A DNA stretch of 58,999 bases from Flavobacteriia bacterium (GTDB lineage: Bacteria; Bacteroidota; Bacteroidia; Flavobacteriales_D; Crocinitomicaceae), in assembly GCA_947455515.1 (NCBI GenBank), contig CANGOF010000004.1:1-58999 (forward strand), in the 5' to 3' direction. Below, piece after piece: positions 5,583 to 21,868 of this stretch. Under the pieces are notes generated by a model. The model was not told the DNA's origin, searched no databases, and saw nothing but the letters and a program-made list of their open reading frames with translations. Within the stretch, counting starts at the first letter, position 1. Every line of letters starts with the position of its first letter. Both the position numbers and the translations under genes were made by a program.

Positions 5583-5755
5583 CGTTCGTCAAATAAAAAG
5601 GAAGTGCGGTAACACTTCCTTTAAAAGACACAGATTAACACTGTTTTACCGAGCAGTATAAAAATGTGCAATCTTCGAACAAGTAGTATGCCGAAAATGC
5701 TTGTAAGTAAGATAAGAAAAAAAATGGAGAGTAGGTGATGTAAAAATATAATAAA
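5583..5755 (+). promoter_or_regulatory. Conserved precursor leader RNA, copy 1
   Basis: This is the first of three near-identical 5' regions ahead of the precursor genes. It starts with a perfect 7-bp hairpin (GGAAGTG-CGGTAA-CACTTCC at 5600-5619) followed by TTT, then about 100 conserved bases including ACCGAGCAGT and AAGTAGTATGCCGAAAATGC. A short frame at 5664-5738 (MCNLRTSSMPKML then eleven more residues) ends 17 bases before the precursor ATG. The hairpin could be a terminator for upstream transcripts, an attenuator, or a stability element; the sequence does not decide between these. Confidence 0.6.
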
Positions 5756-5965
5756 ATGAAATTAACAAGCAAAAGGTTGTCAAAATTTACGAAAAAAGAA
5801 ATTTTAGATATTGAAAACATAAATGGAGGTGCAGAAATTAGATTATTCTGCGTAACTGCAAATTGGGAGGGATGGTTTGATGGTTCTCTTTTTACAAGAG
5901 GGAAAATCAATGAATTTGACCGTCCTTGTAAAACTGTTGAAACAAGTACTAATACATATTATTAG
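5756..5965 (+). CDS. Grasp-with-spasm precursor peptide 1 (double-glycine leader)
   Basis: This 69-residue peptide has a basic leader of 25 residues ending in ENINGG (G24-G25), the cleavage site expected for the C39 peptidase domain of the exporter at 17 kb. The predicted 44-residue core is rich in Thr/Ser and Asp/Glu, the side chains ATP-grasp ligases join as esters or amides, and has two Cys (FCV and PCK). It is followed 59 bases later by the exported-protein gene and then by GwsG and GwsS. The leader differs from those of precursors 2 and 3 (MKLTSKRLSK rather than MKKLESL), which suggests an older divergence. Ring positions cannot be predicted from sequence alone. Confidence 0.85.
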   Translation: MKLTSKRLSKFTKKEILDIENINGGAEIRLFCVTANWEGWFDGSLFTRGKINEFDRPCKTVETSTNTYY

Positions 5966-6024
5966 AATCTATAATGTAGAGTCTATTTTGAAAAATAGAC
6001 TCTACTAATAAATCTGTTAAAATT

Positions 6025-6867
6025 TTGAAAAAAACATTTCTTATATCAGCAACATTACTTAACATACTTGTAATCAATAGATTTTTATGCCAAAACTCAT
6101 CGTTTTTTAATAAAAAAGATTACTATTATAGAGCAATTTATATTGATCAAAATGATGATACTATTTTTAACGAAAAAATAATTGAAAAATTTTTAGGCAA
6201 AAAATGGTTCGCACAAAGAAAATTACAAGATGCAGTAAGTTACATATATTACACTGACACAGCAAATTACAAAAAATTTGTCTCATATGATGATTTTATT
6301 AATGAAAATCAAAAAAAATATTATTTAAAACACCACAAATATAAATTAACAAAGAAAGAAACTATAGGTGGATATTATTACAAAGAGATGTTTTATATTC
6401 ATCCACCAAGAAATAATCAGTACGAAATCCTATTTTATGCTTGGCATCCACAAATAATTTTGACATTTTTATCAGACTCAATAAAAGAATCAAATCAATA
6501 TGCTAATATTAGTTTACCAAAAAAACATAAAGAATTTTTTTTAGATAGTAATAGATTCTTACCTTGTGAAAAGGGTGAATTAATAAAATATTACACCTTC
6601 ATGGGTATCCCTTTATTTGGTACATTTAGACATACAAATACTATTACCAATTATAATGATATAATCATAAATAACCATAAAGTGAAAGCTTATAAAGTAT
6701 ATGTAGAGTCAAAAGGTTATTTGAATAAAAAATATAAAAATATAAATACATTTAATGGTTCTGTTGAAGCTATTTTCACATTGGAATATGGTTTCGAAAG
6801 AATACTTTATGAATTTCAAAATGGTATTAAAATTCAGTTTTATTTAGAAAAAATCATTCAATTATGA
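6025..6867 (+). CDS. Cassette 1 exported protein of unknown function
   Basis: This 280-residue protein starts at TTG with a signal-peptide-like N-terminus (MKKTFLISATLLNILVINRF), so it is probably periplasmic or outer-membrane associated. No family was recognised. The mature part is basic and aromatic, with YYYKEMFYIHPP near 122-133 and a strand-rich C-terminal half. It holds the same slot as the TPR/DUF6624-like exported proteins of cassettes 2 and 3, between precursor and ligase, but shows no clear similarity to them. Its stop overlaps the gwsG start by 4 bases (ATGA), so it is translationally coupled. A role in immunity or in handling the exported product is a guess. Confidence 0.75.
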   Translation: MKKTFLISATLLNILVINRFLCQNSSFFNKKDYYYRAIYIDQNDDTIFNEKIIEKFLGKKWFAQRKLQDAVSYIYYTDTANYKKFVSYDDFINENQKKYYLKHHKYKLTKKETIGGYYYKEMFYIHPPRNNQYEILFYAWHPQIILTFLSDSIKESNQYANISLPKKHKEFFLDSNRFLPCEKGELIKYYTFMGIPLFGTFRHTNTITNYNDIIINNHKVKAYKVYVESKGYLNKKYKNINTFNGSVEAIFTLEYGFERILYEFQNGIKIQFYLEKIIQL

Positions 6868-7820
6868 TAATTCTTTTTTCATTTCACGGTGATAGAATTA
6901 CCAATAAACTAATAGATTGGTTGTTGTATTATAATATTCAATTTAAGAGAATAAATTTGGAAGATGAAACTCCATTCAATATAACAATCGAATATAATAA
7001 TGATATGAATATAAAATTTAAACTCATTAATAGCGAAATCATCAATTTTTCAGAGGTTAAATATTTTTATGTGAGAGGAGTTGGTTTTAAAGAACTTAAT
7101 TGTTTCACTAAAATTCCAAATATACCACAACCAATAATAAATAAATATTTAAAATTAGAATGGGAAACACTAATTAATTTTTTCTATTCAGAAATAAATA
7201 AAAAATCAATTGGTTCATTTAAAATTGGAGATAATCATAGTAAATTAAAACAATATAAAATAGTTAAATCTTTAGGTTTAAACCTCCCAAAATCTATTAT
7301 ATGCAATAATCTAGAAGAAATTAATAGTTTTCATGAAAATAAAAATTTAATTACTAAAGCAATTCAAGATAACATTGCAACTGAATACAACAGAAAAGTT
7401 TACCTTCAAAGAGTACAAAGGTTTAATATAAAAGAAATTGACAAAGAGTTTTTCCCTTCATTTTTTCAAATTGAAATTGAAAAACAATATGAAATTAGGA
7501 CATTTATTTTTGATCAAAAATGTTATTCTATTAAATTTACTTTTAAAGAAAAGGGCATTGATATGCGAGATTATTATAACCAACATGAATATGCCTCCTA
7601 TCAATTACCAAAAAATATTCAAAACAAATTAATTTCACTTATCGAAAAATTAGAATTAAAATCTGGATCTATCGATCTAATTAAAGATATGAATAATAAT
7701 TATTACTATTTAGAAACAAATCCAAATGGTCAATATGATTGGGTATCAACATTTACAGAAACTAATTTACATCAAACCATTGCAATTTTTTTTAAAAATG
7801 AAATCAAAAAACTTAAATAG
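6864..7820 (+). CDS. gwsG: ATP-grasp peptide maturase GwsG, cassette 1
   Basis: This 318-residue ATP-grasp ligase is of the graspetide (microviridin-like) group. It has the N-terminal nucleotide-ligase-like domain with IDWLLYYNIQFKRIN, a lysine-bearing strand (NLITKAIQDN), the region IEKQYEIRTFIFDQKCYSIK, and the Mg/ATP-binding end GSIDLIKD...YLETNPNGQYDW. Such enzymes activate Asp/Glu side chains with ATP and couple them to Ser/Thr/Lys, making ester or amide rings. The closest family known to me is the grasp-with-spasm maturase. It is more diverged from the GwsG of cassettes 2 and 3 than those are from each other; for example it has LETNPNGQ where they have LEINPxGQ. Its coding end overlaps the next small gene by 23 bases. 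Confidence 0.9.
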   Translation: MIILFSFHGDRITNKLIDWLLYYNIQFKRINLEDETPFNITIEYNNDMNIKFKLINSEIINFSEVKYFYVRGVGFKELNCFTKIPNIPQPIINKYLKLEWETLINFFYSEINKKSIGSFKIGDNHSKLKQYKIVKSLGLNLPKSIICNNLEEINSFHENKNLITKAIQDNIATEYNRKVYLQRVQRFNIKEIDKEFFPSFFQIEIEKQYEIRTFIFDQKCYSIKFTFKEKGIDMRDYYNQHEYASYQLPKNIQNKLISLIEKLELKSGSIDLIKDMNNNYYYLETNPNGQYDWVSTFTETNLHQTIAIFFKNEIKKLK

Positions 7821-7965
7821 AATAAATCCACCTATTATTTTCAATAATATTAAAATAATAAAAAATCTAAAAAATAGACATCAGATAGAAGGTGAAAAAA
7901 ATACATTTTATTCAGATAATGACTTCAGTCCGTTCCCATTTTACAAACCAATAATTAAATTTTGA
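7798..7965 (+). CDS. Small basic protein between GwsG and GwsS, cassette 1
   Basis: This 55-residue protein starts at the ATG at 7798 inside the end of gwsG and stops 4 bases before gwsS. It is rich in Asn, Ile and Lys and ends SPFPFYKPIIKF. All three cassettes have a 55-66-residue frame in this position; the cassette 3 version shares FYKP near its C-terminus. No family is recognised. The conserved position and tight overlaps suggest a real gene, possibly an adaptor for the maturases or a second substrate; it has no GG leader. Confidence 0.6.
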   Translation: MKSKNLNRINPPIIFNNIKIIKNLKNRHQIEGEKNTFYSDNDFSPFPFYKPIIKF

Positions 7966-7969
7966 AACA

Positions 7970-8917
7970 ATGATTATTAAAGGATTTAGAAGAACTATTA
8001 AAGTACCATTAATTCAAAAAAGTGATTACCAAATTTTTAACAATAATGATTATAAATTTTCACAATCTAATTATCAAAAGAAAATTAATCAATTTTCATA
8101 TCCATCATTAATAACGAACTCAATTATTGAAATCAATTCAAATAACATTAATTTTAGAAATCTTAATTTTCTAAAATGGGTTTTATGTAAAAATATTGTT
8201 ATTGAATTTATTAATAGCCCATCCTTAGTAATTATTCAAAATATTATTAATCAATGTATTGTATCAAACGTACACCAAATTACAATTATTATAAATCATT
8301 TTATTGATGAATATTATTCAGATAATTTCATAGAAAGTATTTTGTGTAATAGATTACAAAAGATAATTATTTTTAATAGTCCATTTATTCAAAATATTGA
8401 GAATTCATTTTTTTTTTACAATTTCAATCGAAAGCGAACATTAAAAAAATATAAAACAGAATTTTATCCTGATTTAACTTTAATCTATGAATCTTATGAT
8501 TTTCATACCTATTTTAATCAAAAACTTTATATAGGCCCTTCAGGCGAAATAAAAAACGCACCTGAAAGTGATGAAATATTTGGAAATATCAAAGATATTG
8601 AAAATCCAGAAGATCTCAAACAAATCATTTCAACACCTGAATTCCAAAAGTATTGGTCTGTACATAAAGACATACAAGACGTTTGTAAAGACTGTGAATT
8701 TCGTTATATGTGCGTAGACAATAAAATTCCCTATCAACGAACAGAAAATGAATGGTATCACAAAACTGAATGCAATTATAATCCTTATATCGCTAAATGG
8801 GAAGGAGAAGATGGTTATAAAACTTTAGCTGAATGTGGGGTCATATCCCACGAAAATGGTTTTTCCATCGATCATGATAAAATTGCAGAAATAAATAAAG
8901 TTTTATGGGGCGAATAA
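7970..8917 (+). CDS. gwsS: SPASM-domain peptide maturase GwsS, cassette 1 (short form)
   Basis: This 315-residue protein carries the C-terminal SPASM-type Cys cluster CKDCEFRYMC (CxxCx5C) with later Cys in TECNYNPY and AECG, but no CxxxCxxC radical-SAM motif. That is the hallmark of the SPASM partner in grasp-with-spasm systems. The Cys cluster probably binds an iron-sulfur centre; its catalytic role is unproven. Compared with copies 2 and 3 it is 53-60 residues shorter: it starts later (MIIKGFRRT aligns to IPVKGYQRS of copy 3) and lacks a helical segment of about 50 residues. The last about 37 residues are almost identical in all copies, and here the DNA belongs to a long direct repeat. Confidence 0.88.
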   Translation: MIIKGFRRTIKVPLIQKSDYQIFNNNDYKFSQSNYQKKINQFSYPSLITNSIIEINSNNINFRNLNFLKWVLCKNIVIEFINSPSLVIIQNIINQCIVSNVHQITIIINHFIDEYYSDNFIESILCNRLQKIIIFNSPFIQNIENSFFFYNFNRKRTLKKYKTEFYPDLTLIYESYDFHTYFNQKLYIGPSGEIKNAPESDEIFGNIKDIENPEDLKQIISTPEFQKYWSVHKDIQDVCKDCEFRYMCVDNKIPYQRTENEWYHKTECNYNPYIAKWEGEDGYKTLAECGVISHENGFSIDHDKIAEINKVLWGE

Positions 8918-9320
8918 TATAGTACAATTATAATACTCATTCGCTATTTAAAATTTCATCCATTTTAACTTGAATATTATTTTCATGCTATTTTCAATTA
9001 TTTATTCAGAAATAAATGTGCACAATTAAAGTACACATAACAAAAAGATCACTCTTAAAACCAAAAAAGCACGTAAAAATACGCACTTTCAAGCGTAGTC
9101 ATTACGTGATTCAATAGGTAAGAATCATTTTTAGTTAATTGATATTCAATTTTATAAACATTTTTATTTATGTTAGTGCAATTAAAAAAAGGAAGTGCGG
9201 TAACACTTCCTTTTAAAGACACAAATTAACTCTGTTTTACCGAGCAGTTTATGAATGTGCAATCTTCATACAAGTAGTATGCCGAAAATGCTTAAATGAA
9301 AGATAAGAAAAAATTGTTGA
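8807..9320 (+). repeat. Long direct repeat, copy A (gwsS end to leader)
   Basis: This segment spans the last about 110 bases of gwsS of cassette 1, the whole intergenic region and most of the leader before precursor 2. It matches 12746-13265 nearly base for base by eye, with scattered substitutions only. It includes ACGTAAAAATACGC at 9071-9084 and the GGAAGTG hairpin at 9191-9210. Together the two copies flank cassette 2. Confidence 0.85.
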
Positions 9321-9343
9321 GTAGGCGGTTAAAATTATATGAA
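9170..9343 (+). promoter_or_regulatory. Conserved precursor leader RNA, copy 2
   Basis: This is the second copy of the leader: hairpin GGAAGTG-CGGTAA-CACTTCC at 9191-9210 followed by TTTT, then ACCGAGCAGT and the AAGTAGTATGCCGAAAATGC block. The conserved short frame is 14 codons here (9255-9299; MCNLHTSSMPKMLK) and its stop overlaps an ATG at 9296 that is in frame with the precursor. That ATG would add 16 residues to the precursor. Confidence 0.6.
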
Positions 9344-9580
9344 ATGAAAAAATTGGAGAGCTTAAACTCAAAAAAATTTAAATTAACCGAAAAAGATAAA
9401 AGTATAGTAAAAGGTGGATGGAATTTTTCAGCTGGAACAGGTGAATGTCATGGAACTGGATGCTCCGAAAGAACTGGTACTACTGGAGCTTTTATCGACT
9501 GGGAAGATGTTGAGTGCGGAGAAACAGTGATACCAGGGAGCGTAAAATGTCCTCCAACTATCGCTGTCAATTATCAATAA
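9344..9580 (+). CDS. Grasp-with-spasm precursor peptide 2
   Basis: This 78-residue peptide starts at ATG 9344, chosen because MKKLESLNSKK then aligns with the start of precursor 3 (MKKLESLKSKK). An alternative in-frame ATG at 9296 would give 94 residues. The leader ends SIVKGG (G24-G25). The 53-residue core has four Cys (ECH, GCS, ECG, KCP) and a central TGTTGAFIDWEDVECGE stretch in which Thr donors precede Asp/Glu acceptors, as in known graspetide cores. GwsG is the likely modifying enzyme and the 17-kb ABC transporter the likely processing exporter. Confidence 0.87.
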   Translation: MKKLESLNSKKFKLTEKDKSIVKGGWNFSAGTGECHGTGCSERTGTTGAFIDWEDVECGETVIPGSVKCPPTIAVNYQ

Positions 9581-9640: not shown

Positions 9641-10567
9641 ATGAAAAATAAAGCGATTTTATTAATAATCTTTCTACAACTTTTAGTAGTAAATAATTAC
9701 ATCTATTCACAGTTGTTCTTGCCATTTTTTTTTAATCAAAATATGCAATATGATATTGAAAAGCAAGAATTAGGTCAGATTGGAGTCAATTATTTTTACG
9801 AAAATAAAATCGATTCTGCCATATACTATTACGAAAGACTTTCAAAAATATCAAATGAAAAAACAATAAATTTTAATCTATCTGTTTTTTATGGTTATAA
9901 AAGGGATACCAATATGACTTTAAAACAAATCTTTTTGTATGTTGATAAATGTAAAAATAACAATTTCAAATTGGGAGCATTTACTAAATCACCTGTTTTC
10001 AATTTTTTAAATCGTAATTCAAAATTTAATTTATTAATTGAAAAATGTAGAAAGCTCGATACATGTTGCAATCGTTATCAAGATATTATTGAAAGAATAG
10101 ATTATTGTGATCTAAAAGAACAGGAAATTTTAGGTAATCCTAAATATTATAATGGTGAAAAATTAAATGAGAAAAATTTTGAACTTAAAAATAATTCAAA
10201 ATCAATTTCAGATATATTGAATAATCTTTTATTATACAATAACAATAATTTAGGTAATTCACTTCCTATTTTACAAATTATCATTTTACATATGGATTAT
10301 TCGCCAAATGAACAATTAAAATTGGGTCGATTAATTATTAATTCTCAGGATAGTTTAGGTTTTAATAAAAAGCAAGCTGCCTACATCGTAGATCGAGCAT
10401 TAAAAAATCTTTCTTTACCACAAGAATATGGTACAATAATCATTAATAATAATAAAACTGACTCATTATATAAATTAGATAATTTAGAACAAGTTATAGA
10501 AAGAAGAAAAAAAATGAATTTACAATCATTAGAGAATTATTTAATAAATAGACAGATTACAAAATAA
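9641..10567 (+). CDS. Exported TPR/DUF6624-like protein, cassette 2
   Basis: This protein has 308 residues from ATG 9641, preferred over a TTG at 9620 because it begins a clean signal peptide (MKNKAILLIIFLQLLVVNNY, cleavage near YSQ). The N-terminal half resembles TPR helices (IGVNYFYENKIDSAIYYYER). The C-terminal half has the order of features of DUF6624 proteins: a hydrophobic IIILHMD segment, AAYIVDRALKNLSLPQEYGT, and a final VIERRKKMNLQSLENYL. It is likely periplasmic. It occupies the slot between precursor and ligase, so it may bind, sense or protect against the product; this is inference. The next gene, gwsG, starts 8 bases later. Confidence 0.75.
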   Translation: MKNKAILLIIFLQLLVVNNYIYSQLFLPFFFNQNMQYDIEKQELGQIGVNYFYENKIDSAIYYYERLSKISNEKTINFNLSVFYGYKRDTNMTLKQIFLYVDKCKNNNFKLGAFTKSPVFNFLNRNSKFNLLIEKCRKLDTCCNRYQDIIERIDYCDLKEQEILGNPKYYNGEKLNEKNFELKNNSKSISDILNNLLLYNNNNLGNSLPILQIIILHMDYSPNEQLKLGRLIINSQDSLGFNKKQAAYIVDRALKNLSLPQEYGTIIINNNKTDSLYKLDNLEQVIERRKKMNLQSLENYLINRQITK

Positions 10568-10575: not shown

Positions 10576-11565
10576 ATGATATTGATACTTTCTGATTCTA
10601 ACATCCAACCTTCTATAGATCAAGTTATAGACTGGTTAATTTTTTATGATGTTAAATTTGTTAGACTAAATGGACTAAACGATGATGAACTAACATTGTT
10701 TGAAGGTGATCTAAATCAAATAAAAATTGAAACAAAATTTAATAATTTAGATTTTTCAGAAATAAAATCTATTTGGTCATTTAGATGGTCTCATCCTTTA
10801 AATGATGGTACTATTATATTAGATAGAGATATAAAAAATAAAATTGATGTTAATCAATTAAATAAACATTTAGTTTTCACGAAAAATATTTTCCATAGTT
10901 TTTTGTTTTATAAATTAGCTAATAGAAGATGGTTAGGAAATAGAGAGGTTACAAGTCTAAATAAATTAGCTACATTAAGTAAGGCAGAAGAGTTAGGATT
11001 AATTATACCATATACCTATTTTTCAAATAAAATAAATAGTATAAAAAATGTATCTCAGTTAAAGGATAATTTTATAACTAAGGCATCATGGGAAATGCTT
11101 CAACTAATATATAATGATAATACATACTCAACCTTTACTCAAAAAATTAATGATGAATTAATTTTAAATGAAGAAACTATTGGAATTTCATTAATCCAGA
11201 AAAAAATTGATAAAGCATATGAGATTAGAAGTTTTTATATTGATAATGAATTTTACTCTATGGCTATTTTTTCACAAAACAATGATAAAACAAAGATAGA
11301 TTTTAGACAATATGATAATGCTTTTCCGAATAGAAATGTACCTTACAATTTACCTATTTCAATTACAAAAAAAATAAAAAAATTAATTTCTTCGTTGAAA
11401 ATAAATACCTGCTCTATAGATTTGATTAGAGATTTAGATGGAAAATATATTTTTTTAGAAATAAATCCTGCTGGTCAATTTGGCATGACATCAAAACCAT
11501 GTAACTATAATCTGGAACATAAAATCGCAAATTTTTTAATTAATAATGATAGAAAAACTACTTAA
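10576..11565 (+). CDS. gwsG: ATP-grasp peptide maturase GwsG, cassette 2
   Basis: This 329-residue ATP-grasp ligase starts MILILSDSNIQPSIDQVIDW. It has the WSFRWSHP block near residue 75, a conserved lysine region (DNFITKASWEM), the loop KAYEIRSFYIDNEFYSMAIF, and the Mg-binding end SIDLIRDLDGKYIFLEINPA followed by GQFGMTSKPCNYNLEHKIA. The E-x-N pair in LEINPAGQ is the expected metal ligand. It is predicted to form ester or amide cross-links in precursor 2. It is similar to the cassette 3 enzyme throughout. The 3' end overlaps the following small gene by 20 bases. Confidence 0.92.
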   Translation: MILILSDSNIQPSIDQVIDWLIFYDVKFVRLNGLNDDELTLFEGDLNQIKIETKFNNLDFSEIKSIWSFRWSHPLNDGTIILDRDIKNKIDVNQLNKHLVFTKNIFHSFLFYKLANRRWLGNREVTSLNKLATLSKAEELGLIIPYTYFSNKINSIKNVSQLKDNFITKASWEMLQLIYNDNTYSTFTQKINDELILNEETIGISLIQKKIDKAYEIRSFYIDNEFYSMAIFSQNNDKTKIDFRQYDNAFPNRNVPYNLPISITKKIKKLISSLKINTCSIDLIRDLDGKYIFLEINPAGQFGMTSKPCNYNLEHKIANFLINNDRKTT

Positions 11566-11749: not shown

Positions 11750-12856
11750 ATGAAAGAATATTATAAAAAATTTGAATCTTGTAAAATTTGTGTTGGTTCA
11801 AATAGAAGTATAATAATTGATTTTGATCGAGGACTATATTTTTATATACCTAATAATTTCGTTGAAATATTAAATAAAAAGTTTATTGACTTTGACAAAA
11901 TCAAAAAAAAATTCAAAAATCAAGATGCAATTTTAGTAGAGTATTTTAATTTTTTGATTAATAATGAAATCATATTTAAACTACTTAATAAAGAAGACTA
12001 TAAAAAATTCCCCCCTATTTCAGAAGATTATTTAATTTCATCTTTAGTTTCAATTTTAATTATAGATGGAGATTTTTTTTTAAATAACGAATTAATAGAT
12101 CTAATTAAAACGCTAAATTCTAAAGTGTTGTGCATAATTTTTAACAACCAAGTATCGAATAAAATTAAAAAGATTATCTCAATTAAAACTGAAAAAATTA
12201 TAAGAAAAACTAGTATTAATGAAATTGTACTAATTTTTAAAAATTCAGATAAAAAAAATTGGATAACATCAAAAGTCGACGAAATTTTATTAAATAACAT
12301 TGATAAAATTCTAATATATAATTGTAATATTCAATCTGAAATGACTTCAGAAAAATTGAATCAATATAAATATCAATTTGAAGATAGAAAAATAAATTTA
12401 CAGAACTTAAATCTACAATTTTACAATGAATCAAAAAAATACAATCCGTATTTTAATGGTAAAATGTATATTAATACTGATGGAGCAATACAAAACACAC
12501 CAGAAAACACTCAAAGTTTTGGAAAATTAAAATCAACATGCATTTCTTCAGATTTAAATAAAATAATTTCTAGTGTTGATTTTCAAAAATATTCTTTAAT
12601 AAATAAAGATAAAATTAATGTTTGTAACATTTGTGAATATCGTTACATGTGTTTAGATAATAGAATCCCAAAAATAACAATTCAAAATCAGTGGTATTAT
12701 AATTCTGAATGTAACTACAATCCATTTATTTCAAAATGGAAAGACGAAGATGGTTATAAAACTTTAGCTGAATGTGGAGTCATATCAAACGAAAATGGTT
12801 TTTCTATCGATCATGATAAAATTGCAGAAATAAATAAAGTTTTATGGGGCGAATAA
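11750..12856 (+). CDS. gwsS: SPASM-domain peptide maturase GwsS, cassette 2
   Basis: This 368-residue full-length form has an N-terminal region (SNRSIIIDFDRGLYFYIPNN) plus a helical segment at about 45-90 that may be a peptide-recognition-like domain. A diverged middle follows, then the C-terminal SPASM cluster CNICEYRYMC with Cys in SECNYNPF and AECG. There is no radical-SAM motif. The segment from EDGYKTLAECG to KVLWGE is nearly identical in protein and DNA to cassette 1, although the N-terminal halves are very different, a pattern expected from recombination or gene conversion. Confidence 0.9.
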   Translation: MKEYYKKFESCKICVGSNRSIIIDFDRGLYFYIPNNFVEILNKKFIDFDKIKKKFKNQDAILVEYFNFLINNEIIFKLLNKEDYKKFPPISEDYLISSLVSILIIDGDFFLNNELIDLIKTLNSKVLCIIFNNQVSNKIKKIISIKTEKIIRKTSINEIVLIFKNSDKKNWITSKVDEILLNNIDKILIYNCNIQSEMTSEKLNQYKYQFEDRKINLQNLNLQFYNESKKYNPYFNGKMYINTDGAIQNTPENTQSFGKLKSTCISSDLNKIISSVDFQKYSLINKDKINVCNICEYRYMCLDNRIPKITIQNQWYYNSECNYNPFISKWKDEDGYKTLAECGVISNENGFSIDHDKIAEINKVLWGE

Positions 12857-13265
12857 TATAGTACAATTATTATACTCATTCGCAATTTAAAATTTCATCC
12901 ATTTTAACTTGAATATTATTTTCATGCAATTTTCAATTATTTTTTCAGAAATAAATGTGCACAATTAAAGAACACACATAAAAAAATAAACTCTTAAAAA
13001 CTAAAAAAGCACGTAAAAATACGCGCTTTCAAACGTATTCATTACGTGATTCAATAGGTAAGATTCAATTTTAGTTAATTGATATTCAAATTTATAAACA
13101 TTTTTATTTATGTTCGTGAAATTAAAAAAGGAAGTGCGGTAACACTTCCTTTTAAAGACACAAATTAACTCTGTTTTACCGAGCAGTTTATGAATGTGCA
13201 ATCTTCAGACAAGTAGTATGCCGAAAATGCTTGTTCGAAAGATAAGAAAAAATTGGAGAGTAGGT
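12746..13265 (+). repeat. Long direct repeat, copy B (gwsS end to leader)
   Basis: This is the partner of 8807-9320. It covers the end of the cassette 2 gwsS, the spacer (with ACGTAAAAATACGC at 13011-13024) and most of the leader before precursor 3. Differences from copy A are scattered single substitutions and short indels. The copy-to-copy distance of about 3.94 kb equals one cassette. Confidence 0.85.
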
Positions 13266-13572: not shown

Positions 13573-14592
13573 ATGAATACCAAATTTAAAATAGCGATAA
13601 TAATCTTTATACAAATTGCCACTTCAACTATTTTTTCACAAGATTATATAAAATATTCAACTAGAATAAATGAAGCTGAATATTTTATTATAAACAAAAA
13701 TTATGAACGAGCTTTAGGAATATATGATTCTTTATTTAATGAATACGAATTTATTTATGCAAGAAATGCTTTTACGGCTTGTCAATTAGCAGCATACATA
13801 AGTGACTCATTAATTTTTGAAAAATGTTTAGACAAATGTTTTTTGGCAGGTATAGATATTAATGTTTTGTCGATTTCTCCGATTATTTCTAAAATGAAAT
13901 CAAAAAATGAATGGATATCTACAATTCCAAGATATAGAATATTGAATCAAAAATATATTTCAAAAATTGATACAATTTTAAAAAAAAGAGTTGATAACTT
14001 AAGTGCAATAGATCAAAAATATACTAGACGTTGTAATATGTTTTTCGGTTTTGCATACCCGTTTTTTTACAGAAAAGCTAATAAAACATACTCTCAATTA
14101 GTGGACTCATTGCTATTAATATATAATGAAAAAGGTGTACTACCTCATGAAAGAAACATTGGTATTTCTTTCAAATATAATTTATCAGTAAAAAAAGATA
14201 GTTTAAATATTATCAAAGGAAATTTTGATTTTTCTAATCAAAAAGTCATATTAATTCTTCTACATAACCAATCAAATGAAAAGTTAATAAAAAGTAATTT
14301 TCTATTAGAAAATTTGGAAAAAGGATATTTAAAACCGGATGATTATGCATCGATTATAGATTTTTATGCAAAATATGGATCAAATAATGATTTTAAAAAC
14401 ATTAGTTATAACCAACATTTTAGAGATTACGATAGTACAAATTGGATTAATATTAATAATCGAAGAAAAATAATAGGTTTGGAGTCTTTTGAACTGTTAA
14501 GAGCAAAAGAGCAAAGAAGCATTGACATATTAAAAACATCAATAATAAATTGCGATTACAATTACATTAAATTATGGAAAAGATTTTACTAA
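13573..14592 (+). CDS. Exported TPR/DUF6624-like protein, cassette 3
   Basis: This protein has 339 residues from ATG 13573, chosen over ATG 13561 because it opens the signal peptide MNTKFKIAIIIFIQIATSTI (cleavage near FSQ). TPR-like helices come first (EAEYFIINKNYERALGIYDS). The C-terminus then shows the same order as its cassette 2 counterpart: VILILLHNQSNEKL, SIIDFYAKYGSNNDF and NNRRKIIGLESFELL, which fits DUF6624. Likely periplasmic. It ends 8 bases before the preferred gwsG start. A role in product tolerance or in sensing is possible but not shown. Confidence 0.72.
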   Translation: MNTKFKIAIIIFIQIATSTIFSQDYIKYSTRINEAEYFIINKNYERALGIYDSLFNEYEFIYARNAFTACQLAAYISDSLIFEKCLDKCFLAGIDINVLSISPIISKMKSKNEWISTIPRYRILNQKYISKIDTILKKRVDNLSAIDQKYTRRCNMFFGFAYPFFYRKANKTYSQLVDSLLLIYNEKGVLPHERNIGISFKYNLSVKKDSLNIIKGNFDFSNQKVILILLHNQSNEKLIKSNFLLENLEKGYLKPDDYASIIDFYAKYGSNNDFKNISYNQHFRDYDSTNWININNRRKIIGLESFELLRAKEQRSIDILKTSIINCDYNYIKLWKRFY

Positions 14593-14600: not shown

Positions 14601-15572
14601 ATGGTTTTAATCATTTCACAAGATGATGAAAGAAGCACTGAAGATGTAATCAATTGGTTAGAATTTAATAATACACCATATATAAGATTAAATAATACAT
14701 CAGTTTTAAAATTTAAAAAAATTTTAATTGAAAATGATGAGTATGAATTAGTTTTTGAGTTTGATAATAAAATAATAAATTCATCTCAAATTGGTAATTG
14801 TTGGTATAGAAGAGGTCGTTTAAATTTTACTTTTAATTATTTAGAAGTTAAATCTGATTTTGAAATCTTATTAAATGAACAATTAAAAATTGAAAATTCA
14901 TTCATAATTAAATTTTTTCATGATTATTTTAATTCTAAAAAATTTAGTTTGGGAAGTATATTTGACAATGATACAAATAAAATTTCAAATTTATTTTATG
15001 CAAATAAATTTGGTTTACGTGTTCCAGATACCTTAATTACAAGTAATAAATTAGATTTAATATATTTTATAAATAAACATAAAAATATTATTACAAAATC
15101 TATTGGTCAGGCAGGTTTATTATATATAAATAATAATAAACAATTAGATGGTTTAACAACGGTATTTAATGTTAAAGACTTACCTAATATAAGTAATGAA
15201 TTTAGTCCTTCACTATTTCAAGAATGTATAGATAAATTATTTGAAATAAGAGTTTTTTATCTAAATGGAACATGTTATTCTAGTGCTATTTTTTCTCAAA
15301 ATGATCCTCAGACTTCAGTTGATTTCAGAAATTACAATATGGAAAAACCAAATAGAACACCACCAATAATACTTCCGAAAGATACCTCTGAAAAAATTAA
15401 TAATTTAATGAATTATCTAAAAATGAAAACTGGTTCTATAGATATTATTGTCAGTAAAACATATGAATGCTTTTTTTTAGAAATTAATCCTATTGGTCAA
15501 TTTCACCAAGTATCTCATCCATGTAATTATTATTTAGAACTAAAAATTGCTGAATATTTATCATTAAATTAA
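14601..15572 (+). CDS. gwsG: ATP-grasp peptide maturase GwsG, cassette 3
   Basis: This protein has 323 residues from ATG 14601. This start is preferred over ATG 14574 because MVLIISQDDERSTEDVINWL then aligns with MILILSDSNIQPSIDQVIDW of cassette 2. Key features are the WYRRGRLNF block, NIITKSIGQAGLLY (Lys region), LFEIRVFYLNGTCYSSAIFS, and the ATP/Mg end GSIDIIVSKTYECFFLEINP followed by IGQFHQVSHPCNYYLELKIA. It is predicted to cross-link precursor 3 through acid side chains. The similarity to cassette 2 GwsG contrasts with the unrelated core peptides, so specificity probably lies in leader contacts and core geometry. Confidence 0.92.
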   Translation: MVLIISQDDERSTEDVINWLEFNNTPYIRLNNTSVLKFKKILIENDEYELVFEFDNKIINSSQIGNCWYRRGRLNFTFNYLEVKSDFEILLNEQLKIENSFIIKFFHDYFNSKKFSLGSIFDNDTNKISNLFYANKFGLRVPDTLITSNKLDLIYFINKHKNIITKSIGQAGLLYINNNKQLDGLTTVFNVKDLPNISNEFSPSLFQECIDKLFEIRVFYLNGTCYSSAIFSQNDPQTSVDFRNYNMEKPNRTPPIILPKDTSEKINNLMNYLKMKTGSIDIIVSKTYECFFLEINPIGQFHQVSHPCNYYLELKIAEYLSLN

Positions 15573-15577: not shown

Positions 15578-15766
15578 ATGAGAGACGAACAATTAGATAG
15601 ATATATTAATCATTTACCAGTTTATATTAGAAACATGAATATGGTTTCTAAATATGAAAGAAATAAAACTCAAATTTTAAAAATAAGAAATACATTAGAA
15701 TACTCTTGTTTTTCTTTTTACAAACCAGTATTTGGTAATATTAAATCACTTATTAAGTATGAATAA
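15578..15766 (+). CDS. Small protein between GwsG and GwsS, cassette 3
   Basis: This 62-residue protein starts 5 bases after gwsG. It ends SFYKPVFGNIKSLIKYE, and its last 8 bases overlap the gwsS start (ATGAATAA). It shares FYKP and a basic C-terminus with the cassette 1 version. The family is unrecognised. Conserved location in three cassettes with overlapping reading frames supports a real gene. Confidence 0.6.
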   Translation: MRDEQLDRYINHLPVYIRNMNMVSKYERNKTQILKIRNTLEYSCFSFYKPVFGNIKSLIKYE

Positions 15767-16886
15767 TATAAAATATCAAAAATTAAATTTGTTTGCAGAT
15801 TGCATACCTGTTAAAGGATACCAAAGAAGTATTATTTATGATTTAACTAGGTGCACATATCAATTTATACCAAATGATTTATTTGATTTTATAAATCGAA
15901 ATTTTGTTTCTGATTATAAGGACAAACAAAATAAATTAATTTTAAACGAATATATAGAATATTTATTTGATCAAGAATTTATATTTGAAACTAACTTGGA
16001 AAATAAATTTGAATTCCCGAAAATTAAATTTGACTGGAAATATCCTGGCATTATTTCAAATTTAACAATTGTAATTGAAGATGAAAATACTTTTTATATT
16101 TCAAATCTATTTTCTGATTGTATTAATAAATTAGGTGTTTTTACAATTGGAATTAATTTTAAATCTAATATTTCTGAAGTTTATTACACTAAACTATTAG
16201 AAAACATAAGTTTTTCAAAAATAAGATGTGTAGATATTATTCACGAAAATGACAATAAAGTAAATTGTGAATTTTTAAAAGAATTAGTTGTTTCATTTGT
16301 GAACATTAAATCTATAGTTGTATTAAGTAATAGAAGTGAAATTATTACACATGGGAGTTTAGGTATGGGTATAATTAGTTACATAAACAAAAATCAATTA
16401 AAAGTAGATTCTTTTGTAAACTGTAATAATTTCATTGTAAATATTGATTTATTTTCTGAATCACAGAATTTTAACAATTATTTAAACAAAAAGCTTTTCA
16501 TTGATGAAAATGGATATATAAAAAATGCTTATGAATGCAACGAAACATTTGAAAACATTGAAAACATTAAAACATTTGAGAAATTAATTCAAATTATTAC
16601 ATCTTTTAATTTTCAAAAAAAATGGGGTGTAAATAAAGATATAATTGATATATGTAAAGATTGTGAATTTAGATATATGTGTATAGATAGTAAAATTCCA
16701 AATCAACGTTCAGAAAATGAATGGTATAATACATTAGAATGTAATTATAATCCTTACATAAGTAAATGGCTCGACGAAGATGGTTATAAAACTTTAGCTG
16801 AATGTGGGATAATATCAAATGAAAATGGTTTTTCCATCGATCATGAAAAAATTACAGAAATCAATAATGAACTTTGGGGAGAGTAG
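15759..16886 (+). CDS. gwsS: SPASM-domain peptide maturase GwsS, cassette 3
   Basis: This protein has 375 residues from ATG 15759; an upstream TTG at 15732 is less likely. It has the full N-terminal region LFADCIPVKGYQRSIIYDL followed by a helical segment (LILNEYIEYLFDQEFIFE), which copy 1 lacks. The SPASM cluster is CKDCEFRYMC, then LECNYNPY and AECG. There is no CxxxCxxC, so it is not itself a radical-SAM enzyme. The C-terminal DNA is similar to cassettes 1 and 2 until the stop codon, after which the similarity ends: the long repeat is not continued here. Confidence 0.9.
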   Translation: MNNIKYQKLNLFADCIPVKGYQRSIIYDLTRCTYQFIPNDLFDFINRNFVSDYKDKQNKLILNEYIEYLFDQEFIFETNLENKFEFPKIKFDWKYPGIISNLTIVIEDENTFYISNLFSDCINKLGVFTIGINFKSNISEVYYTKLLENISFSKIRCVDIIHENDNKVNCEFLKELVVSFVNIKSIVVLSNRSEIITHGSLGMGIISYINKNQLKVDSFVNCNNFIVNIDLFSESQNFNNYLNKKLFIDENGYIKNAYECNETFENIENIKTFEKLIQIITSFNFQKKWGVNKDIIDICKDCEFRYMCIDSKIPNQRSENEWYNTLECNYNPYISKWLDEDGYKTLAECGIISNENGFSIDHEKITEINNELWGE

Positions 16887-17000: not shown

Positions 17001-17047
17001 GTTCAAATCGACATTGTCAATTGTCCATTAAATCATTGTCGATTTGA
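17001..17047 (+). repeat. 12-bp perfect inverted repeat before the exporter gene
   Basis: TTCAAATCGACA at 17001-17012 pairs perfectly with TGTCGATTTGAA at 17036-17047, with a 23-base loop holding ATTGTCAATTGTCCATT. The right arm ends 8 bases before the ATG of the ABC transporter. There is no U-tract, so a terminator is unlikely; it may be a translation-control hairpin or an operator. Confidence 0.7.
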
Positions 17048-17055
17048 ATTTCAGA

Positions 17056-19257
17056 ATGAATAAATTCCCTCATTACCTCCAACCCGACACCATGGATTGC
17101 GGTCCAACATGCCTTCGTATCATTGCGAAGCATTACGGTCGTTCCATCTCATTAGAAAAACTCCGCAGTCTTTCCGATACCACACGTAGCGGAAGTTCAT
17201 TACAGGGAATTGCGGATGCCGCTGAAAAAATTGGTTTTAGAACCTTAGGGGTTAAAATTGATTTTGAGGTATTAAGTGAACAGGCTCCGCTCCCTTGTAT
17301 TGTTTTTTGGAGACAAAGCCATTTTGTGGTAGTCTATAAAGTAAAAAAAGGAACTATTTATGTTTCAGATCCAGCACATGGATTATTAGAATATTCCAAA
17401 CAAGAATTTTTAGCCAATTGGATTGGTTCGCATGCTACAGATAAAACCGAAGAAGGTATTGTTCTGCTACTCGAAGAGACTCCAAAATTAAAAGAAACGG
17501 AAGAAGACGATGTAGCGCGAAAAGAAGGCATGGGCTTTTTATGGAAATACATGGCTAACTACAAACGCTATTTGTTTCAATTAGCGTTAGGCTTGTTTTC
17601 TGTCAGTATCCTGCAACTAATATTCCCTTTCCTTACTCAAAGTGTGGTAGATATCGGTATACAAAACAAAGACTTACATTTTCTATACCTTGTTTTGTTC
17701 GCCCAACTATTTATTTTCTTGGGGAGAACCATCATTGAAATCACCCGCGGTTGGATATTGCTACACCTTTCCACGCGTATAAACATTTCGCTGGTTTCAG
17801 ATTTCTTAATCAAATTAATGAAACTACCTATAGCATTTTTTGATTCCAAAATGACTGGAGACATTATGCAGCGCATCGGAGATCATAGCCGCATCGAACA
17901 ACTCCTTACTAACCAAACCTTAAACGTTTTATTTTCTGCTTTCAACTTTATAGTTTTTGGTATTGTTCTGGGAATTTACAACCTACCAATCCTTGGAATA
18001 TTCTTATTGGGTACTGTATTATACTTCTTATGGATTTCCTTTTTCCTCAAAAAACGCAGTGATTTAGACCACAAACGTTTTTCTCAAATGAGTGATGAGC
18101 GTAACCGTGTCATGGAACTAATCCAAGGAATGCAAGAAATTAAGTTACACAACGCCGAACGTAACAAACGTTGGGGATGGGAAAACTTACAAGTGAAGCT
18201 TTTTAAAATTCACATCAAGAGTTTACGTTTGGAGCAATTGCAAAGTAATGGTTCAGGTATCATCAACGAATTAAAAAACATCTTAGTGAGTTTTTATTCA
18301 GCAAAATTGGTAATTGATGGTAGTTTGACCTTAGGTATGATGCTTTCCATCTCCTACATCATTGGGCAGTTGAACTCCCCTATTTCTCAATTCTTATCCT
18401 TTATTTATTCGTACCAAGACGCTAAAATATCCATCGAACGTTTAAGTGAAATACATAACAAAGAAGACGAAGAACCCGCAGGAAGTGAACAACTTCACTT
18501 CTTACCCGAACAACATACATTGCATCTTGAAAAAGTAAGTTTTCGTTATCCAGGAATGCAAGATACTGTACTTAACGAGTTAGATTTAACGATTCCTGCT
18601 AATAAAATTACGGCCATTGTTGGTTCTAGTGGTAGCGGGAAAACAACCTTAATGAAAATGTTGTTGCGTTTTTACGAACCAACGACTGGTAATTTATTAT
18701 TAGATAAAACTCCGCTTAATTCTATTTCACAACATACGTGGCGTGCTCAATGTGGTTCTGTCATGCAAGAAGGTTATATCTTTTCAGATACCATTGCAAA
18801 CAACATAGCGGTGGGTGATGAAATTGTAGATAAAAAGAAATTATTGCATGCTGTCAAAGTGGCAAACATTCAAGAATTTATCGAAAGTCTACCGTTGAGT
18901 TACAACACTAAAATCGGTGGCGAAGGAATGGGTATCAGTGGAGGTCAAAAACAACGTGTCTTAATTGCTCGTGCAGTCTATAAAAATCCTGAATTCTTAT
19001 TCTTCGACGAAGCAACTAGTGCCTTAGATGCTAAAAATGAAAAAGTGATTATGGAAAACCTAAACGAGTTTTTTAAAGGAAAAACTTCTGTAATTATCGC
19101 TCATCGTTTGAGTACCGTTCAACATGCCGATCAAATTGTTGTCTTGGAAGGAGGACAAATTGTAGAACTCGGAAATCATCAATCATTGATAGAAAAACAA
19201 GGTGTGTATTACAACTTAGTGAAAAATCAATTGCAGTTGGAGAAATTAGAAGCATAG
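17056..19257 (+). CDS. Peptidase-containing ABC transporter (C39, leader-cleaving exporter)
   Basis: This protein has 733 residues from ATG 17056; a TTG at 17044 lies inside the hairpin and is less likely. The N-terminal C39 peptidase domain shows C15 (MDCGPTCL), H89 (QSHFVVVY) and D105 (VSDPAHG). A six-helix ABC transmembrane domain follows at about 160-440. The ATPase domain has Walker A GSSGSGKTT at 522-530, signature GISGGQKQR at about 626-634 and Walker B FLFFDEATSALD at about 647-658. These exporters cut after GG leaders and move the peptide across the inner membrane. With no other exporter nearby, it probably serves all three precursors. Codon use is richer in GC than in the cassettes. 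Confidence 0.95.
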   Translation: MNKFPHYLQPDTMDCGPTCLRIIAKHYGRSISLEKLRSLSDTTRSGSSLQGIADAAEKIGFRTLGVKIDFEVLSEQAPLPCIVFWRQSHFVVVYKVKKGTIYVSDPAHGLLEYSKQEFLANWIGSHATDKTEEGIVLLLEETPKLKETEEDDVARKEGMGFLWKYMANYKRYLFQLALGLFSVSILQLIFPFLTQSVVDIGIQNKDLHFLYLVLFAQLFIFLGRTIIEITRGWILLHLSTRINISLVSDFLIKLMKLPIAFFDSKMTGDIMQRIGDHSRIEQLLTNQTLNVLFSAFNFIVFGIVLGIYNLPILGIFLLGTVLYFLWISFFLKKRSDLDHKRFSQMSDERNRVMELIQGMQEIKLHNAERNKRWGWENLQVKLFKIHIKSLRLEQLQSNGSGIINELKNILVSFYSAKLVIDGSLTLGMMLSISYIIGQLNSPISQFLSFIYSYQDAKISIERLSEIHNKEDEEPAGSEQLHFLPEQHTLHLEKVSFRYPGMQDTVLNELDLTIPANKITAIVGSSGSGKTTLMKMLLRFYEPTTGNLLLDKTPLNSISQHTWRAQCGSVMQEGYIFSDTIANNIAVGDEIVDKKKLLHAVKVANIQEFIESLPLSYNTKIGGEGMGISGGQKQRVLIARAVYKNPEFLFFDEATSALDAKNEKVIMENLNEFFKGKTSVIIAHRLSTVQHADQIVVLEGGQIVELGNHQSLIEKQGVYYNLVKNQLQLEKLEA

Positions 19258-19259
19258 AC

Positions 19260-20567
19260 ATGGAAGAAAACGAAGCAATAAAAGTTGAATTAAAGAGTGA
19301 AGTATTAAACGAAGTACTATCCACTCCACCATCTTGGTTAACACGCTCAGGGAACACCTTATTCTTTTTAGTGATTGTAATGATTTTGTCTTTGAGCTAT
19401 GTCATATCTTATCCAGATGAATTACAAGGTGACGTTACGATCTTTAATAGTCGCCCGCCTATCGAATTTCACAATGCCATGTATGGAAAACTGGTAAGTT
19501 TACAAGTACACGACCAACAAGAAGTAAAAAAGAATCAAATTGTAGCACAATTCAATAGTGCAGTTAATCCCAAGGAAATTAATGCAATGAAGTTGTTTTT
19601 GATTGCCCTTTCTAATACTTCAGAACTAAAAACAATGGATGTTCCAATTTCACTACAAGCCATTCATGTGGGTGGATTACAACAAGGTTGGAATGCCTTA
19701 TTAGCTTCGATTAATGAATGGAATGCAATCCAAAAAACGAATGTATTAGGGAATAAAAAAACAAGTTTACAACAGGAAATAGTACAACGTAAAAAACTAT
19801 TGGAAATTGGTCAACGCAAGTCGAAACTCATCGAACGTGAAGTCACATTGCAACACCAACAAACAAAAGCAGCACAACGTTTATTAGCTAAAAACGCGAT
19901 TTCCAAAGACGAATTTTTGAAAGAAGAACGTACAGAAAATCAACTCTTACAAACCTACCAAAATCAAAAAGAAGCGCTTATTCAAATTGAAATTCAATTA
20001 AATAGTTTGGCGAAAAATGTAATCGAATCCGATTTTGAAACTCAGCAACAAATCCAAAAATTAAAAAGTTCCATTCAAACACAAATAAGTGCGCTTCAAA
20101 ACCAACTACTCGATTGGGAAAAAAGTACAGCGTGGGTCGCTCCTTTGGATGGTAAAATCCTATTCAATAAACAACTAAACGTTTCAAGTTTTTATCAAGC
20201 AGGTGAAGCATCCATCGTATTAGTACCAAAAGGATTTCACTACAAAGCGACTGTTCGTGTTCCTAGTCAAGGCGCAGGAAAAATTGCTAAAGGTCAAAAA
20301 GTTTTTATCGAATGTCTCGATTTTCCAAAGCACGAATATGGAGTATTAGAAGGTCGTGTAGCTTCCATTACTTCCATCGCCAAATCCATGGATAAAGTCG
20401 AAGTGTATGAAGTAGAAATTCAACTGCCAAAAAAACTGATTACAACCTACAAAAAAGAAATCCCTGTAAAGGCACAACTTAAAGGAATCGCTAAAATCAT
20501 CACCAAAGACAAGCGACTCATCTCCCGTTTCTTTGAAAAAGTACTAAACGCAATTGAAAAGAAATAA
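19260..20567 (+). CDS. HlyD-type periplasmic adaptor (membrane fusion protein)
   Basis: This 435-residue protein has one N-terminal membrane helix (about 30-50, TLFFLVIVMILSLSYVIS), then a short biotinyl-lipoyl-like segment (GKLVSLQVHDQQEVKKNQIV). A long coiled-coil region runs from about 130 to 280, and a C-terminal barrel follows with the second lipoyl half (APLDGKILFNKQLNVSSFYQ). It links the inner-membrane ABC exporter to the outer-membrane channel. It starts 2 bases after the ABC gene stop, and its stop codon shares a base with the next gene's ATG. Confidence 0.92.
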   Translation: MEENEAIKVELKSEVLNEVLSTPPSWLTRSGNTLFFLVIVMILSLSYVISYPDELQGDVTIFNSRPPIEFHNAMYGKLVSLQVHDQQEVKKNQIVAQFNSAVNPKEINAMKLFLIALSNTSELKTMDVPISLQAIHVGGLQQGWNALLASINEWNAIQKTNVLGNKKTSLQQEIVQRKKLLEIGQRKSKLIEREVTLQHQQTKAAQRLLAKNAISKDEFLKEERTENQLLQTYQNQKEALIQIEIQLNSLAKNVIESDFETQQQIQKLKSSIQTQISALQNQLLDWEKSTAWVAPLDGKILFNKQLNVSSFYQAGEASIVLVPKGFHYKATVRVPSQGAGKIAKGQKVFIECLDFPKHEYGVLEGRVASITSIAKSMDKVEVYEVEIQLPKKLITTYKKEIPVKAQLKGIAKIITKDKRLISRFFEKVLNAIEKK

Positions 20568-21868
20568 TGTTTAAAAAATTAATTTTCGCACTTTCCATCC
20601 TAATTGTCAATTGTCCATTCTCAATTGTCCATTCACAATTATCACTCGAACAATGCATAGAATTAAGTTTAAAAAACAATAATTTACTTGCTACGCAACA
20701 TGCAAACAATGAACGCACTGCCTTAAATTATAATTTTGGAAAATGGTCCTTTTTACCAAACGTTTCCACCTCTTCAGGATACAACATAAATTATGGTCGG
20801 AAATTAGACCCATTTACCAATACTTTTGGGGTAAACTCAGTATATTCCAATTCGTATAGTATTTATTCGCAAGCAACTTTGTTTCAAGGATTTCGCTATT
20901 TCAAACAAAATAAACTCAACCAATTAATTCGAGAAAATACTAAGGTAGATTTTGAGCGTTCCAACGAACGAATTAAATCACAGGTCGTTGAACGTTGTGT
21001 AGCAATTTGGAAACTTCAACTCAAGCAATTGCAGCAACAAAAAGTAATTGATGGTTTAGTCTCCTTTAAACAAAAGCAAAAAGAACTTGTAAAAGAAGGA
21101 CGTATTCGTGGATTAGATACTTTAGAAACATCTATAAATATTCGAACTCAACAAATTTCCCTTCGAAATATTGAAAAAGATTTACGTATTGAAACAATGA
21201 ATTTAAACTTTTATCTTGGGAAAAAGATTGGTGAGAATACAGAGTTATTTCCATTAAATACTTCGATAGAACCAATCACTTCTTCTCTTAAAATTAACAT
21301 AGATGAATATTATCAAGTAGAAGATTTAAAAACAAAATTAGAAGTTAGCAAACAACAATATAAAGTTGAAATTACCCAATGGATGCCTACACTTTCTTTA
21401 ATTGGAAATTTAGGTACCGGTTATTCTTCAAACAATAAAGATTACAGTATTCCTTCCACACCAATTATCAACTACGACAACCAACTAAGAAACAATTTTT
21501 ACCAGGGAATAGGCTTTAGTTTATCATTACCTCTCTTCAATCGTGGTGATTTGATTAAACGAGTAAAAACTTATAACATCACTAAAAATGAGCAAGAAAT
21601 ATTAGTCAAGAGTAAAATCCTCGAATTAGAAAAAAAGAAATTAGAGCTTAAAAATCAATTCGAATTCCTTCAAGAAAATATTCGTATTCAAAAAGAAATT
21701 TGTAATGACAAAGAAATTATTTATCAAATTTCACAAACACTTTACCTCGAAGGTAAAATTAGATTGGTAGAACTAGAAAAAATACAAACAGATTTGATGA
21801 ATGCATTACAACTATCAAACGAACTTGAAATCGAAGCGTTGAAATTATCCCTGTTTCGTTTTGATTGA
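20567..21868 (+). CDS. TolC-family outer membrane channel
   Basis: This 433-residue protein has a signal peptide (MFKKLIFALSILIVNCPFSI, cut near VHSQ) and then TolC repeats: LSLEQCIELSLKNN with long amphipathic helices, and the second repeat QYKVEITQWMPTLSLIGNLG onward. It completes a type I-like export path. The coding DNA of the signal peptide contains the tandem words TCAATTGTCCATTC, which also occur in the loop of the hairpin before the ABC gene. The start codon overlaps the HlyD stop (TAATG). Confidence 0.92.
   Translation: MFKKLIFALSILIVNCPFSIVHSQLSLEQCIELSLKNNNLLATQHANNERTALNYNFGKWSFLPNVSTSSGYNINYGRKLDPFTNTFGVNSVYSNSYSIYSQATLFQGFRYFKQNKLNQLIRENTKVDFERSNERIKSQVVERCVAIWKLQLKQLQQQKVIDGLVSFKQKQKELVKEGRIRGLDTLETSINIRTQQISLRNIEKDLRIETMNLNFYLGKKIGENTELFPLNTSIEPITSSLKINIDEYYQVEDLKTKLEVSKQQYKVEITQWMPTLSLIGNLGTGYSSNNKDYSIPSTPIINYDNQLRNNFYQGIGFSLSLPLFNRGDLIKRVKTYNITKNEQEILVKSKILELEKKKLELKNQFEFLQENIRIQKEICNDKEIIYQISQTLYLEGKIRLVELEKIQTDLMNALQLSNELEIEALKLSLFRFD

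Follow-up and report, generated by a model that had tools for sequence, protein, structure and literature searches.

Graspetide loci that pair an ATP-grasp ligase with a SPASM-domain protein are known from Bacteroidetes, where branch 5, according to the available text of PMC8939145, comprises 190 loci with a SPASM protein, an exported protein of cluster 23, very diverse precursors and a small gene, encoding an LPL protein, directly 5′ of the SPASM gene. In the available passages of PMC13097080, a SPASM protein accompanies group 14 in every case, and four other groups are described as frequently containing DUF6624. The locus described here lies at 5.6–21.9 kb in a window of 58,999 nucleotides, positions 1 to 58,999 of contig CANGOF010000004.1 (C4) of a Flavobacteriia bacterium of the Crocinitomicaceae (assembly GCA_947455515.1), a 2.9-Mb draft genome in 167 contigs. 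It holds three grasp-with-spasm (gws) cassettes, each encoding a precursor with a glycine-glycine (GG) leader, an exported protein, an ATP-grasp ligase (GwsG), a small open reading frame (ORF) and a SPASM protein (GwsS), followed by one C39-ABC, HlyD and TolC exporter set. Each precursor is preceded by a conserved element of about 150 nt, whose RNA nature is well supported by covariation.

The locus resembles branch 5 in its gene order, including a cluster 23-like exported protein, C39-ABC and HlyD, and in its diverse precursors; unlike branch 5 as described in the available text of PMC8939145, it has three complete cassettes placed one after another ahead of a single exporter and an RNA element 5′ of the precursors, and the words 'riboswitch', 'untranslated', 'intergenic' and 'cassette' do not occur in that text. 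As in rosaritide and corallotide, which are partner-dependent graspetides, an ATP-grasp ligase is accompanied by a dedicated partner protein, but the partner families there differ, and the available passages of PMC13097080 describe no group 14 product. We regard the locus as a good example of a known, chemically unsolved kind, with the shared RNA as the new part.

A model in which three gws cassettes share one exporter, an RNA leader controls the precursors and cassettes are exchanged at constant joints is, in our judgement, fairly probable, and its grounding in sequence consists of the cassettes and their families, the covariation of the predicted RNA structure, the position of the RNA before GG peptides and the conserved joints. 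As to regulation, peptide chemistry, immunity and the way of exchange, we infer that the folded RNA is most likely the 5′ end of the precursor mRNA and would set, through a pseudoknot adjoining the start codon, when the precursor is translated; that GwsG would close rings in the core of its own cassette, with GwsS as a putative non-radical partner or scaffold; that the C39-ABC exporter would cut after the GG and secrete the peptide; and that the exported protein would go with the core, for immunity or core-specific processing. At the joints, the RNA and the gwsS 3′ end are nearly constant in DNA sequence, and homologous recombination there could bring about gain, loss or exchange of cassettes.

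A structured RNA ahead of the precursors

The conserved block 5′ of each precursor aligns across the three copies in the window and two on contig C33 of the same genome, and a profile of these five copies led to further loci of the same family. The window copies, with their scores in the models R1 and R2, are as follows.

5591–5744 (+): RNA element copy 1, helix P1 starting about 9 nt in; R1 157.2 bits, R2 144.3 bits
9182–9334 (+): RNA element copy 2; R1 162.5 bits, R2 145 bits
13121–13273 (+): RNA element copy 3; R1 170.8 bits, R2 155.2 bits

The element contains the helices P1, P2/P3 and P4, with a kissing helix between the loops of P1 and P3 and a second pseudoknot between the P4 loop and a GGC-type stretch shortly 5′ of the start codon. 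Folding single window copies alone recovered P1 to P4 and not the pseudoknots. In an alignment of 14 of the 22 copies (A7; two L149 copies, L020 and five type-B copies were left out, middle part misaligned), 91.6% of the cells are paired, compared with 84.6% in shuffled alignments, and 15 of the 34 pairs are double-changed, compared with 6.7 (standard deviation (sd) 1.7), the measure 'further pair types' being equalled in 12 of 500 shuffles. A larger alignment (A8) of 43 model matches, 40 of them distinct since L006/L186 and L020/L197 are copies seen twice, is 90.9% paired, as opposed to 75.7% after shuffling and 33–43% with partners slid by 1–3 columns; 27 of 34 pairs (19.1 in shuffles, sd 2.1) and 184 cells (50.8, sd 5.9) are double-changed, and none of the A8 measures was equalled in 500 shuffles. 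Pairing amounts to 98.7% in the kissing helix and 91.5% in the second pseudoknot, both of which lie outside the model used to build the alignment. Eight loop hexamers (CGGUAA, CGGCAA, CUACAA, CUGGAA, CUGACA, CUGCAA, CUGUAA and CAGUAA) are found with exact complements; pairing is imperfect, or the alignment off, in L128 and L118, which have gaps in the P3 loop, and in L125, L189, L197/L020 and L191, whose complements are inexact.

The element might instead owe its conservation to its DNA alone, serving as a recombination joint or a promoter region spread between cassettes by gene conversion, with no RNA role; its location coincides exactly with the conserved joints, and copies from different cassettes of a genome resemble each other closely. 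Compensatory changes in the helices and both pseudoknots across divergent genomes, together with its retention in single-cassette loci such as L128, L129 and L133, make this very unlikely and favour an RNA. The element shares an upstream position, pseudoknots and covariation with known cis-regulatory RNAs and riboswitches in Rfam 15, the likeness here being one of structure and position only, but unlike them it has no credible Rfam 15 match: nothing was obtained over the element at E ≤ 1, and at E ≤ 10 only scores far below gathering were returned (window copies and L128, L149 and L148). It was not found described in the literature searches either, and is apparently undescribed as far as these and Rfam 15 reach.

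At E ≤ 0.01, R1 matched 29 of 240 family genomes; at E ≤ 1e-4, R2 matched 30 of the 399 genomes searched in the order, of which 28 are Crocinitomicaceae and two belong to one other family. The large-scale searches were run with stricter filters, by which weak copies can be missed. Across 395 genomes drawn from the phylum, R2 matched no genome besides the window's own, and in 70 of 76 gws loci, the six left out being copies of family loci searched otherwise, only L020 (Crocinitomicaceae) and L049 (Fluviicola) were matched. The RNA is present in 18 of the 30 family genomes with GwsS, compared with 11 of the 210 without (Fisher p 2.9e-12, for 240 mutually related genomes), an association that is favoured because the models grew from copies near gws genes. 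In the fetched loci, 28 of 43 family GwsG hits have the RNA within 3.5 kb upstream (the frameshifted L122 gene entered this count as two pieces).

R2 gave 54 matches in 64 loci, 42 of them at 70 bits or more; two of these lie at contig ends, leaving 40 to be judged. A rule fixed after an earlier look at the ORFs following the RNA, namely an ATG 3–18 nt past the model end opening a peptide with GG at residue 8–45, holds for 34 of the 40, compared with 156 of 20,000 random sites in the same loci. A separate trans-acting small RNA whose gene lies by chance 5′ of the precursor could also be compact and structured, and some copies indeed have no following GG peptide; the fixed spacing to the start codon in 34 of the 40 judged copies and the participation of the stretch right before the start codon in the second pseudoknot argue against it, and we consider it unlikely compared with a leader of the precursor mRNA.

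On C33, one copy stands ahead of a precursor with a 397-aa protein lacking a credible family match behind it, and another ahead of a precursor accompanied by a CPBP-type protein (PF02517, above cut-off); neither has adjacent gws enzymes. Since the RNA also heads cassettes devoid of gws enzymes, it appears to be tied to the export leader and not to one chemistry. We lean slightly towards the view that it represents a new class of cis-regulatory RNA, acting as a family-wide switch for secreted peptide weapons irrespective of their maturation (gws, CPBP-linked, linked to a protein of about 400 aa, perhaps lipoprotein-borne) and also providing the constant 5′ anchor for cassette exchange. If the RNA is such a switch, one signal would govern several chemically distinct peptides, and searching for the RNA would offer a way to precursors whose cores share no sequence.

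Several observations weigh against a leader RNA of GG precursors. The fold stability of single copies is unremarkable (z between 0.09 and −2.97 for six of them). Six of the 40 strong copies depart from the GG rule: those in L187, L194, L195 and L196 precede lipoproteins, in L122 a GG ORF lies 66 nt downstream, and in L225 there is none; among 12 copies at 32–56 bits, only four conform to it. Twelve GwsG hits with at least 2.5 kb visible upstream lack the RNA, one of them a non-gws ATP-grasp (L006:5644). A scan for Bacteroidota-type promoters upstream of 40 of the 42 copies, two being too close to the contig end, found TAnnTTnG in 12 of the 40 (4.0 on average and at most 10 after shuffling), TAnnTTTG in 4 of 40 (1.6 shuffled) and a third variant in 0 of 40. 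The scan was indecisive, with near-P1 sites mostly in copies from the window's genus, and no promoter motif 5′ of the RNA is claimed.

Other genes next to the RNA were also recorded. A protein of about 400 aa without a credible family match is located behind an RNA-headed precursor in L186 (9280–10473, −) and L155 (12812–14026, +); the leader of these precursors reads MSLEx-F...IQGG, the L186 protein has an HQCGH stretch, and this protein is perhaps another peptide-modifying enzyme. The lipoproteins behind the RNA (L187:1611–2264, −; L194:899–1657, +; relatives in L195 and L196) have Gly/Ala- and hydrophobic-rich C termini that by eye resemble some unmodified bacteriocins, and the L187 lipoprotein gave a weak Imm40 match (19.6 bits, cut-off 25). 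The matches in the other family are weaker (L226:248–397 and L227:7499–7646, 55 and 54 bits) and no peptide conforming to the GG rule follows; a 912-aa exported protein begins 12 nt past the RNA in L226.

Three cassettes, one exporter and constant joints

All cassette genes of the locus point rightwards, and the three cassettes and single exporter set reported in the first-pass annotation are present at the coordinates below; overlooked there were the RNA element, the mosaic joints, a second gws locus on contig C33 and the C39 fragments on C33.

5318–5364 (+): possible remnant of a C39 gene 5′ of cassette 1; 47 nt, 74%, weak
5756–5965 (+): precursor 1, 69 aa, GG leader, 44-aa core
6025–6867 (+): exported protein 1, signal-like start; relatives in L126, L121, L046, L061 and L082
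6864–7820 (+): GwsG1, ATP-grasp ligase; TIGR04192 161 bits, below cut-off
7798–7965 (+): small ORF 1, 55 aa, read from an internal ATG of ORF 7726–7965; no family match
7970–8917 (+): GwsS1, SPASM protein lacking the greater part of its N-terminal domain (alignment); TIGR04193 90.7 bits, profile positions 88–333
8611–9399 (+): joint 1 (gwsS 3′ end, spacer, RNA, leader); 85% identity to joint 2 over 795 columns
9344–9580 (+): precursor 2, 78 aa, 53-aa core, four Cys
9641–10567 (+): exported protein 2, member of a similarity component containing DUF6624 proteins
10576–11565 (+): GwsG2; TIGR04192 270.3 bits
11546–11746 (+): small ORF 2; no family match
11750–12856 (+): GwsS2; TIGR04193 110.8 bits, below cut-off
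12550–13335 (+): joint 2 (blastn against joint 1)
13283–13498 (+): precursor 3, 71 aa, 39-aa core
13573–14592 (+): exported protein 3; AlphaFold2 model all-helical, predicted local distance difference test (pLDDT) 81.8
14604–15572 (+): GwsG3 (alternative ATG at 14574); TIGR04192 265.5 bits
15578–15766 (+): small ORF 3; no family match
15759–16886 (+): GwsS3; TIGR04193 195.4 bits, AlphaFold2 pLDDT 92.3
17044–19257 (+): C39 peptidase/ABC exporter
19260–20567 (+): HlyD-like adaptor; TIGR01843 101.6 bits
20567–21868 (+): TolC-like outer-membrane protein; TIGR01844 47.7 bits

Profile search upheld the grasp-with-spasm assignment, with scores partly below cut-off: each of the three ligases has TIGR04192 (curated cut-off 230 bits) as its best family, exceeding the cut-off in cassettes 2 and 3 and not in cassette 1, and each of the three SPASM proteins has TIGR04193 (175 bits), exceeding the cut-off only in cassette 3. 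The exporter proteins have C39/ABC, HlyD and TolC family matches, every one below the curated cut-off of the models listed. The small ORFs occupy the position of the LPL protein described in the available text of PMC8939145, directly 5′ of the SPASM gene, and by eye, with no LPL profile applied, carry LPV (cassette 3), FPL (cassette 2), PPI (cassette 1) and LPA (C33). The locus on C33 contains a fourth gws cassette with its own exporter, and blastn aligns it to the C4 locus from the gwsS end through the exporter with 88% identity over 5,239 columns.

A repeat scan and blastn first showed that the similarity between cassettes is greatest at the joints; in the sequence lying between the two joints, blastn aligns only a short gwsG stretch. 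Third-codon identity of gwsS among cassettes 1 to 3 is 44–50% in the first part and 65–66% in the last 100 codons; the values for gwsG are 46–51% and 48–51% in its two parts. Two C39 fragments of 117 aa each, with 94% DNA identity to the exporter 5′ end and stopping at the same base, are located on C33, each between RNA-headed cassettes (L006:15799–16152 and 17564–17917, −). They end ahead of the part that presumably holds the catalytic His in the full protein, and are probably non-functional leftovers. C39 fragments are present in other loci too; some end elsewhere (profile positions 67 to 132), and the idea of one fixed breakpoint was dropped.

We read the conserved joints and the C39 fragments between RNA-headed cassettes as traces of recombination at the constant ends, by which cassettes were inserted in front of the exporter more than once. 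An arrangement of variable middles between constant ends would account for the diversification of such peptides. Trees of 45 of the 91 GwsS sequences aligned below indicate a mosaic gwsS only weakly: the grouping of cassettes 1, 2 and 3 is rejected for the N part at p 0.045, and for the C part neither this grouping (p 0.81) nor that of cassette 1 with L121 and L030 (p 0.71) is rejected.

GwsS, the cores and the exported proteins

A SPASM protein lacking radical SAM, as the first-pass annotation had it, is supported by alignment A9, which covers 91 of 105 references (11 duplicates or near-duplicates and L068, L082 and L084 were left out): CX3CX2C is present in the middle part of 0 of 91 GwsS, one showing a looser spacing, CX2CX5C-X15-24-C is present in 91 of 91 and CX2CX5CX3C in 0 of 91. 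The SPASM protein is called a radical SAM enzyme in the available text of PMC8939145, whereas the GwsS proteins here are devoid of the motif. The AlphaFold2 model of GwsS3 (91 sequences) shows an N-terminal strand/helix domain, alternating strands and helices, and a SPASM end. Its best match in the PDB is SuiB (E 7.7e-4), with EpeE among the next, and in a test for a PqqD-like recognition element of ribosomally synthesised and post-translationally modified peptides the leader-binding domain of TbiB1 matched it with probability 0.98 but E 0.12. The domain order of the model, with a leader-binding-like domain, a barrel-like part and SPASM, is that of SuiB, EpeE and other radical-SAM/SPASM peptide maturases, from which GwsS differs in lacking CX3CX2C and in having the single Cys set. 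We read GwsS as such a maturase that lost radical chemistry, although the TM-score of the SuiB match is low (0.28).

Alternatively, GwsS may be more than a scaffold, namely a metal-cluster enzyme that itself introduces a modification, for instance at Cys or Thr. The four Cys of its conserved set are kept throughout, and thioether-type chemistry has been proposed for branch 5 SPASM proteins (available text of PMC8939145); the missing CX3CX2C and the Cys-free core beside GwsS in L126 speak the other way, and we regard this alternative as rather unlikely and prefer a non-radical partner or scaffold.

GwsS1 lacks most of the N-terminal leader-binding-like domain, as its TIGR04193 match begins at profile position 88 and the alignment agrees. 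This short form looks like an old variant rather than damage, because the matches in the relatives L121 and L030 begin in the same profile region, at 88 and 91; the N part of GwsS1 also groups with L121 and L030 in the tree (support 99). With matched sets that differ in whether GwsS retains this domain, the roles of GwsG and GwsS could be separated.

For the cores, the lengths of 44, 53 and 39 residues and the Cys counts of two, four and two given earlier are correct, and the three precursors have no NCBIfam or Pfam match. Precursor 2, previously read from 9296, most likely starts at 9344. Even Cys numbers, though correct for the window, are not general, since the gws core of C33 and the L121 core have one Cys and the L126 core has none, and evenness as a gws rule was dropped. 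Although no two cores of the window are related, that of cassette 2 has relatives elsewhere, in G024 (BLAST, E 4e-9) and, by eye, in L155. The proposal of matching enzymes is supported only in part: in cassette 1, GwsG, the GwsS N part and the exported protein are all nearest to the same foreign loci, and in cassettes 2 and 3 the affinities are mixed.

By similarity, exported proteins 2 and 3 fall into a single component of 45 members and exported protein 1 into one of six; the C33 protein falls into none. Exported protein 1 has no Pfam or NCBIfam match. Alignment A10 takes in 39 members of the large component (38 of the 41 listed and one more); DUF6624 is matched by 13 of them and any given TPR model by at most four. 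Exported protein 3 matches neither DUF6624 nor the TPR models, and its AlphaFold2 model gave no PDB match at E ≤ 0.001. In a comparison of nine exported proteins, those of cassette 2, L155 and G024 are mutual best matches (34% identity, E 7e-37, between cassette 2 and L155; E 4e-21 between cassette 2 and G024). L155 carries the cassette-2-like precursor and exported protein without GwsG and GwsS, ahead of its next RNA-headed cassette. As the cores and exported proteins of these three match alike, and the L155 pair stands without the enzymes, this single case suggests that the exported protein travels with the core, as immunity would.

The exported proteins, often DUF6624, might instead be modifying or processing enzymes and not immunity proteins, a reading to which we give somewhat less than an even chance. 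Cluster 23 proteins have a conserved His and Arg (available text of PMC8939145), DUF6624 has been suggested as a possible biosynthetic enzyme (available passages of PMC13097080), and A10 keeps H, DR and YG positions in otherwise highly divergent sequences. That the protein is exported and so divergent, and that in the one comparable case, the first cassette of L155, it goes with the core while GwsG and GwsS are absent, speaks against this reading.

An AAA-type ATPase that weakly matches the antiphage models MAD3 and PtuA lies behind the exporter of the window and may, together with its 340-aa neighbour (22402–25230), constitute a defence gene pair. A second graspetide-like pair appears to follow the exporter on C33, with a 53-aa GG precursor that has no RNA in front of it and a divergent, non-gws ATP-grasp protein (L006:5641–6826, −; TIGR04187 95.8 bits, below cut-off).

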